A program made the position numbers and the translations under genes. Shown one piece after another: positions 54,136 to 55,956 of a stretch of 64,000 bases of DNA. Within the stretch, counting starts at the first letter, position 1. Each line of letters starts with the position of its first letter. This stretch comes from Calonectria ilicicola (lineage: Eukaryota; Ascomycota; Sordariomycetes; Hypocreales; Nectriaceae), in the NCBI GenBank assembly GCA_020809705.1, contig CP085828.1, positions 7,226,717-7,290,716 of the forward strand. The letters are read 5' to 3'. The notes below the pieces were generated by a model. That model made no database searches. It saw only the letters and a list, made by a program, of their open reading frames with translations, and was not told where the DNA came from.

Positions 54136-55421
54136 TAAGGGACATTCACGAACACCCCTTGCATGGCCACAAAGGCATCAACAAAACCCTTGAACGAGTC
54201 AAACAGACATTTTCCTTTAGTAAGATGAAAAAGAAAGTTGAACAAGTATGTAAGGAATGCAGCCTATGTCGACACTCCAAAAACCAAGACACAAACCATA
54301 CGGATTATTGCAACCATCCCCTGTCGCACAACGACCATGGGACTCAATCACAATGGACTTTATTACCAACCTCCCTTGTCAGCAGACCCTGCTACAGGAG
54401 TATACTATGATAGTATTTTCGTTATTGTTGATCGCTTCACGAAAGCAGCATATTATCTCCCATATAATAAAGCAACAAAAGAAGAACAATTCGCCTACCT
54501 TTTCTTTCGACATATAGTCGCTATACACGGCCTACCAACCGAAATCATATCGGATAGAGGACAACCATTTGCATCTAAGTTTTGGCAAAGCCTGATGTCC
54601 TTAATGGGGTTAAACCACAAGCTAAGCACAGCTTTCCACCCCCAAACAGACGGACAAACCGAACGCCAAAACCAGGAAATTGAGCAATATCTACGATGCT
54701 ACATTAACTACGAACAAACCGACTGGGTAGAAAAGTTACCTATCGCACAGCTAGCACATAACACATCCTACAATCACAGCATTAAGACAACACCAGCAAA
54801 AGCCAATTTTGGCTTCACACCAGATGCTTACCGAGCCCCTTAGAAGGCACAATCCAAGCAAAAGCTATGATCAAGTCAGATGATCTAAGAAAATTACATG
54901 AAGAAATGAAGACAGAACTTGAGTTCGTCCGTAACATCATGAAGAGACATTACAACCTCAAAAGGCTGAAGGGACCAACCTTTTCGGAGGGAGACATGGT
55001 CTACCTAGCAACAAAAAATCTTGCAACAAAAAGACAAAACAAAAAAATCGACTTCACGCAGATTGGACCATACCCCATTAAAAGAAAAATATCAGAAAAC
55101 AACTATGAACTCGACCTCCCAGACAACATTAAAGTGCACCCTATCTTCCACATTTCACTGCTAGAACCCGGTGACGGCATCCAAGTCAATACAGGACCCA
55201 GCTACAAACCACAAATAGAAAACCCAGAAGATCAGTGGGAAGTCGAAAAAATCCTACAAAGGAGAGAAGAAGACGGGAAATTTGAAATTAAATGGAAAGG
55301 CTATAAAGAAACAACATGGGAACCCGCGAAACATCTCACGCACTGCTCGAAGCTGCTGGAAGCGTTCCTGAGGACACAACGCCAAGCAAACCATCGAGGT
55401 CAACAGCGTTCCAATCGATAA
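54100..55421 (+). CDS. Element E pol, part 2: integrase and chromodomain (frame broken)
   Basis: The reading moves through three frames. First, 54100-54280: an HHCC zinc domain, with HEHPLHGHKGINKTLERVKQ and VCKECSLCRH. Next, 54280-54375: PVAQRPWDSITMDFITNLP. Then 54375-54842: DSIFVIVDRFTKAAYYLP and TEIISDRGQPFASKFWQSL with the two catalytic Asp, and TDGQTERQNQEIEQYLR with the Glu. Last, 54843-55421: a C-terminal domain with VHPIFHISLLEPGDG, then a chromodomain, WEVEKILQRREEDGKFEIKW and GYKETTWEPAKHL. Each frame change equals one missing base, at runs AAAAA (near 54,090), AAAAA (near 54,279), CCC (near 54,377) and CCCC (near 54,837). Either these are consensus errors or the copy is young but dead. 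The chromodomain suggests targeting to heterochromatin. Confidence 0.75.
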
Positions 55422-55956
55422 CATCCACTGCCCCTAAAGACTGCGCCTGAACAACGGCTTCCGACTCTACCCGATCCGCCTCTTCCAACTCATCCAAAGA
55501 AGAAAGCCCACGACGCACCATCTCCACACCCTTCGTCTTGAGTTGACGTTTCTGACGACGAAGACGGGATAAACGGTTCAAGGATTCCTGAACCTTGGCC
55601 TGAGCCGCAAGCGCCTCCGCTTGTACACGAAGGAACTCCTCCTCAGCGACCTCTTCCTCTATATCCAAACGATCGGACTCCCGATTTATCCGGTTTACTA
55701 CCAAAGTCAGCAACCAACCACATTCACCACCATAAAATGACGCACACGCAGCCAAAGACGCCTCTGAAGCATCACAGGTCCTACCACGACGAGTGCACTC
55801 GCCGCAACGGTCACCAGAATCCGGCAACATCTTGCATCGCAAACCCTTAGAGGAACAGAATGAACACGGCATGATTTCAAAACCCGTTGAGTTAATAAGC
55901 TGAGCTCGGGCCTTGGCACGAAGACGCTGTTTGGAATCACCTGGACCACGAGGCAT
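55336..55956 (-). CDS. Element E antisense ORF: Zn2Cys6-type zinc-cluster protein
   Basis: 206 residues on the strand opposite to pol, between the chromodomain and the 3' LTR, overlapping the 3' end of pol by 86 bp. A basic N-terminus (DSKQRLRAKARAQLINSTGF) precedes six cysteines at 31, 34, 41, 51, 54 and 61 (CX2CX6CX9CX2CX6C), with GLRC, GECTRRGRTC and Asp after the last Cys. This is the spacing of the fungal Zn2Cys6 binuclear cluster. The rest is a long Ala/Glu/Arg-rich coiled-coil (RESDRLDIEEEVAEEEFLRV, then LRRQKRQLKTKGVEMVRRGL) and an acidic C-terminus. I recall similar CX2C...GLxC...C-E-C-x-R-x-G-R-x-C proteins annotated as hypothetical in other ascomycetes. A damaged homologue lies at the same place in element C. 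A DNA- or RNA-binding regulator of the element is plausible but inferred. Confidence 0.75.
   Translation of the reverse strand: MPRGPGDSKQRLRAKARAQLINSTGFEIMPCSFCSSKGLRCKMLPDSGDRCGECTRRGRTCDASEASLAACASFYGGECGWLLTLVVNRINRESDRLDIEEEVAEEEFLRVQAEALAAQAKVQESLNRLSRLRRQKRQLKTKGVEMVRRGLSSLDELEEADRVESEAVVQAQSLGAVDVIDWNAVDLDGLLGVVSSGTLPAASSSA

Follow-up and report, generated by a model that had tools for sequence, protein, structure and literature searches.

An antisense gene of the brtn family with a Zn2Cys6-like cysteine cluster in a Gypsy retrotransposon of Calonectria ilicicola

The element and its antisense gene

We analysed a stretch of 64 kb (hereafter the window) at the end of contig C4 of the 70-Mb genome of Calonectria ilicicola. 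It contains a Ty3/Gypsy chromodomain retrotransposon (49546-56447) that carries, on the opposite strand between pol and the 3' long terminal repeat (LTR), an additional open reading frame (ORF). This ORF is a real, conserved gene under selection, and it is of a known kind. Judged by position and homology, it is a member of the brtn family of antisense genes.

The element is bounded by two mutually identical LTRs of 395 bp, at 49546-49940 (TG..CA) and 56053-56447, and the sequence shows a polypurine tract with the LTR junction at 56040-56052. Between the LTRs and likewise on the plus strand, gag (49994-51775) matches Retrotrans_gag and zf-CCHC, and pol (51919-54135) matches reverse transcriptase and RNase H, all above the Pfam cut-offs. 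The rest of pol (54108-55421) is fragmented by frame breaks located at homopolymers. It encodes the H2C2 integrase domain, the Tf2-like SH3 domain (SH3_Tf2-1) and the chromodomain, all above cut-off, and the integrase core (rve), which lies on a broken frame and scores below its own cut-off. LTRs, a gag-pol with reverse transcriptase, RNase H, integrase and chromodomain, and the 5-bp target duplication of other copies identify the element as Ty3/Gypsy of the chromodomain kind; the window copy itself has no perfect 5-bp duplication.

The antisense ORF, on the minus strand (55336-55956), starts with ATG, runs for 206 codons and is placed between pol and the 3' LTR as the initial annotation had proposed. 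The chromodomain frame of pol ends at 55421, such that the last 86 bp of the antisense ORF (55336-55421) overlap the end of pol. The open frame is thus present, but its sequence is best read as a two-exon gene with a spliced product of 190 amino acids rather than 206. Exon 1 (55746-55956) encodes an N-terminal helix and the Zn2Cys6-like cluster, and exon 2 (55336-55697) a coiled coil and a conserved tail, with the stop at 55336. The intron between them (55698-55745) has 48 nt, is in phase 1 and reads GTGCGT...CTGAC...TAG. An intron occurs at the same site and in the same phase in two further families of this genome, B and C (the window family being A). It measures 50 nt (L029) and 46 nt (L031) in family B and 52 nt (L033) in family C, and in all three copies the frame is open in the spliced reading only. 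In a degraded B copy (L032) the intron has 51 nt and reads through in frame, as in the window. Three NCBI-named homologues (P0007, P0012 and P0013) skip the corresponding stretch; in several unnamed calls it is translated, giving residues that vary and are often hydrophobic.

The splice signals of this intron sit on the minus strand, which points to an antisense nuclear transcript and supports the earlier suggestion of transcription opposite to the genome. We infer that the gene is transcribed and spliced. Since these signals are found on the antisense strand only, retrotransposition through the sense genomic RNA would leave the intron in place, which illustrates a way for a retroelement to retain one.

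Copies in the genome

We searched the genome for the ORF (best 150 of 196 candidates scored) and found it at 100% protein identity in at least 25 places. A search with a stretch of pol, made without regard to the ORF (best 40 of 303 candidates scored), gave at least 25 places at which this stretch was identical. These were the same 25 and the ORF was present in all of them (25/25), so the gene passes the check for its presence in related copies. Further copies of the ORF contain numerous TAG and TAA codons, a pattern as left by repeat-induced point mutation (RIP).

We aligned 21 copies, i.e. the window copy and 20 fetched from the 24 others (L009-L028). The two LTRs are identical in 19 of the 20 fetched copies. 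The flanks of 11 show a perfect 5-bp duplication, five share the flanks of the window copy, two have unequal flanks and two have exchanged ones. The alignment has 81 variable columns, including one 64-bp deletion, within the span of which fall the four substitutions of another copy. The remaining variation consists of 13 single-base indels, mostly in homopolymers, and four further substitution columns. Across the 21 copies the antisense ORF has no variable column. By these sequences, the element is active or recently active and has moved recently. The frame breaks of gag-pol (49994-55421) differ from copy to copy among these near-identical elements, and those of the window copy are likely assembly noise. 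We ruled out that pol frameshifts are a feature of the family, because the breaks vary among copies and are mostly scattered single-base homopolymer indels.

The flanks TTGGG and GTTAT, which are not duplicates of each other, are common to the window element and to L009, L016, L017, L021 and L025. On each side these six copies are also flanked by about 1.5 kb of shared, near-identical sequence, up to the end of what was fetched (48036-57900 in the window), which identifies them as parts of a duplicated segment near the ends of contigs C1, C2, C4, C8 and C10. Two other copies, L019 and L020, lie about 15 kb apart on opposite strands of contig C9 and have exchanged flanks (GTCTA/CTTTC and CTTTC/GTCTA), which suggests an inversion through recombination between them.

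Homologues and selection

One single-sequence search and two profile searches, the latter scoring the best approximately 8000 candidates, returned 18, then at least 59 and at least 103 homologues at E-values of 0.001 or better. They come from Fusarium, Metarhizium, Colletotrichum, Apiospora, Staphylotrichum, Pseudogymnoascus and metagenomes. These genera belong to the Sordariomycetes and Leotiomycetes. One of the homologues, P0036, is annotated as 'putative brtn [Fusarium flagelliforme]'. Against a profile built from 12 sequences, with the spliced window protein at its head and family B among them, it scores an E-value of 2.5e-41. It is 34% identical to the spliced window protein over 84% of the latter's length, and resembles family B of this genome. 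Among the matches listed, none was named as the Botrytis BRTN itself. The gene brtn was reported as the antisense gene of the Boty-like elements of Botrytis cinerea (Zhao et al. 2011, Virology 417:248-252). It has also been reported from Sclerotinia, and a Monilinia transcript resembles BRTN and pol. The gene in the window has the same setting in a fungal Gypsy element, opposite in strand to gag-pol and placed between pol and the 3' LTR, and is homologous to an annotated BRTN. The initial annotation knew of no described fungal case, a view that the 2011 report of brtn in Boty contradicts.

We measured selection in family B, the window family being too uniform for dN/dS and comparisons between families being near saturation. 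Two B copies with an open antisense gene, L029 (B) and L031 (B2), differ in it by 32 synonymous and nine nonsynonymous changes (dS 0.336, dN 0.022), a ratio of 0.06. The initial annotation would have taken a ratio near 1, together with cysteines that are not conserved, as evidence against the gene, and the value in this sister family is far from 1. The ratio is 0.06 in exon 1, 0.07 in exon 2 and 0.04 when the overlap with pol is left out; the last 283 codons of pol give 0.08 in the same two copies. Going from L029 to L031, eight of the nine nonsynonymous changes are C-to-T or G-to-A, which is the direction that point-mutation damage takes. On these counts, the antisense protein and pol are constrained about equally, and the gene is under purifying selection in family B.

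The cysteine cluster and the predicted fold

The six cysteines of the window protein fit CX2CX6CX9CX2CX6C, and thus the spacing of the Pfam domain Zn_clus (PF00172), CX2CX6CX5-12CX2CX6-8C. As the initial annotation had noted, the Zn2Cys6 spacing is there. Across all six frames of the 64-kb window it turns up a single time, and 100 shuffled windows gave no instance. A helix is predicted ahead of the cluster and a long one after it, the latter in agreement with the coiled-coil tail read from the sequence earlier. The predicted fold resembles Zn2Cys6 domains, the best matches being Leu3, LAC9 and HAP1, all of them weak. We therefore call the domain on its spacing, conserved cysteines and predicted fold, with a Pfam score below the cut-off. 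The product of the antisense gene is probably a nuclear, dimeric protein of the Gal4 type, with a Zn2Cys6 cluster and a coiled coil. It shares with GAL4, LAC9, HAP1, PUT3 and Leu3 the six cysteines, the order of cluster and long helix and, at weak scores, a similar predicted fold. Unlike such proteins, it scores below the Pfam cut-off, is encoded by a retroelement and has a predicted helix ahead of the cluster.

The cysteines are kept in the homologues, with exceptions. In an alignment of 31 rows, hand-picked from the homologue hits and leaving out P0009, P0028, P0031 and P0033 (in which cysteines or part of the cluster are missing), three cysteines are invariant and three are found in 90% or more of the rows. 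When P0022, P0030 and P0032, each one cysteine short, are also left out, 29 of 29 rows have the cysteines, given those exclusions. A test of spacing with the last gap widened to 6-9 was fitted by 25 of 71 proteins; nine more fitted a looser form and 37 did not, many of the latter being truncated, although they were not inspected individually.

Several results weigh against the assignment to Zn2Cys6. The window protein does not reach the gathering score of Zn_clus (13.5 bits against a cut-off of 21, E-value 0.083), and 12 of 31 homologues match this domain at an E-value of 1 or better, the best at 0.001. One cysteine is missing from P0022, P0030, P0031 and P0032, and the gene models of P0009 and P0033 lose part of the cluster. 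The window protein has the canonical CX2CX6C, whereas family B and the 'putative brtn' P0036 have CX2CX7C. Finally, the matches to known structures and folds are weak, and tetherin coiled coils rank between Zn2Cys6 proteins in the PDB list.

Covariation with the U3

The antisense gene diverges between families together with the U3 of the LTR, whereas pol and R-U5 are nearly identical. The reverse-transcriptase stretch of B copies with an open antisense gene (C7:2410153, C2:7536059 and C8:3973507) is 98% identical to that of family A. Between A and L029, identity is 94% in the 3' part of pol, dropping to 85-89% over its last 300 bp, then 73% in the overlap of pol and antisense gene, 42-53% in the antisense exons and 48% in the U3, before it returns to 99% in R-U5. 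In the 3' LTR of the window, the U3 is at 56053-56290 and R-U5, 99% identical to family B, at 56291-56447, with the border between U3 and R placed at this step in identity. Such steps require recombination; the mosaic would be explained if first-strand transfer at R were combined with a single template switch close to the chromodomain.

The U3s carry different repeated words. GATCACC occurs five times in A (at 56152-56200 in the window), GTCGAAC four times in B, as two near-perfect palindromes, and GTCGGGA three times in a further family, D. The palindrome of family B, GTCGAAC-N4-CCCGTTCGAC, has 35 occurrences in the genome (e.g. C4:27771-34343), of which 24 are paired at a distance of 46 bp. 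Family C resembles A in exon 1, and their U3s are 54-59% identical. A RIP-tolerant form of GATCACC is found 6-8 times in three C-type U3s (0/300 shuffles each) and in the U3 of neither B nor D. Two decayed elements, at L020:8753-9082 and in L034, both assigned to the C type by eye, retain 7-8 RIP-altered forms of GATCACC in their U3.

Other observations speak against a functional pairing of motif and protein. The motifs were picked after inspecting the U3s. When any top 7-mer is considered, the observed count is reached in 0/500 shuffles for A, 9/500 for B, 35/500 for B2 and 35/500 for D, and in 498/500, hence without significance, for L033, a RIP-damaged copy of family C. The two decayed elements in L034 and L020 are close relatives and not independent. 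In the window, GATCACC also occurs nine times outside both LTRs, for a total of 19 against 4.1 expected. Repeated sites for host factors are frequent in LTR enhancers. The covariation of motif and zinc-cluster type over four families can stem from adjacency without function.

Possible functions of the antisense gene

LTR elements with antisense genes have been described from plants, fungi and retroviruses. Our best guess, which we hold at about even chances, is that the gene encodes a regulator of transcription acting on the element's own U3; the regulatory role put forward in the initial annotation gains support in this form. A promoter on the side of the 3' LTR would produce a transcript against gag-pol, spliced once, and its product would enter the nucleus as a dimer with Zn2Cys6 cluster and coiled coil. 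The dimer would bind, in the U3 of the element's own LTRs, the repeated motif that is specific to its family and set the level of sense transcription, either lowering it when copies are many or raising it. With somewhat less confidence, we propose that this lineage encodes its own sequence-specific Gal4-type regulator, that regulator and U3 sites form a cassette exchanged between near-identical elements by template switching during reverse transcription, and that families in one genome thereby escape each other's control.

Other functions deserve consideration. The antisense gene adjoins and overlaps the chromodomain end of pol, and the flanks have 37% G+C or less in 19 of the 20 fetched copies. 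This would fit a protein acting at replication or integration, which guides the integration complex to chromatin with the chromodomain or binds element DNA or RNA in the particle. We find this unlikely, because the gene varies with the U3 and not with the region of integrase and chromodomain (94% identical between A and B), and because a separate spliced mRNA is an odd route to a particle protein. We regard it as similarly doubtful that the protein restrains copy number or works against silencing via host chromatin or RNA interference rather than via its own U3, or that the antisense RNA is itself the active principle. Any antisense transcript extending across the 3' end of pol would form a duplex with the genomic RNA; yet a dN/dS of 0.06 (0.04 outside the overlap) indicates that the protein itself is selected, which weighs against RNA pairing alone, though not against a host target.

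Two further explanations fare worse. Domains of the Zn2Cys6 type are typical of host regulators, and the initial annotation had suggested the capture of a host gene by a retroelement. A recent capture by the window element is very improbable given the homologues, at least 103 in Fusarium, Apiospora, Pseudogymnoascus and others, besides those of Metarhizium and Colletotrichum in an earlier search, many of them on short contigs. One of them is named brtn, and the intron is common to three families. Far back, the family may still descend from a host protein of the Zn2Cys6 type. An ORF of equal length arises in 4/1000 dinucleotide shuffles of 55036-56052, but conservation at the protein level, the intron and the dN/dS contradict a chance ORF, to which we give practically no credence.

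Comparable layouts are known. The Botrytis brtn is reported to have the same antisense location in a fungal Gypsy element. In plant Retand elements (PMC11963269), the TRP28 antisense ORFs likewise lie between pol and the 3' LTR and are predicted to bind DNA, and a regulatory role is proposed for them with a comparison to retroviral antisense genes. They differ from the window gene in their domain, in their plant hosts and in belonging to a non-chromovirus lineage. In HTLV-1 (PMC3185765), HBZ is a nuclear bZIP protein, made from an antisense transcript of the 3' LTR, that regulates sense transcription from the LTR, which is the layout proposed here. HBZ is, however, an unrelated protein of a human retrovirus and works by binding host factors and co-activators.

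As far as the open-licence literature in PMC reaches, the conserved antisense intron of a brtn-type gene, its Gal4-like reading and the mosaic of divergent antisense gene and U3 with near-identical pol and R-U5 are new; we found no description there of a brtn-type gene as Gal4-like or intron-bearing. The proposed role of the gene, control of the promoter of its own element, is likewise new. A conserved Gal4-like protein beside U3s with distinct repeated motifs makes this function directly testable, given the short length of the protein, the candidate site and the reporter. If self-regulation through the U3 is true, fungi would have an equivalent to self-regulation of the HBZ type, and the families would offer a ready-made collection of zinc-cluster proteins paired with their sites.

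Outside the element, an LTR-like inverted fragment adjoins the 3' LTR (56605-56767, 84% complementary to 56283-56445) and is probably a decayed copy.
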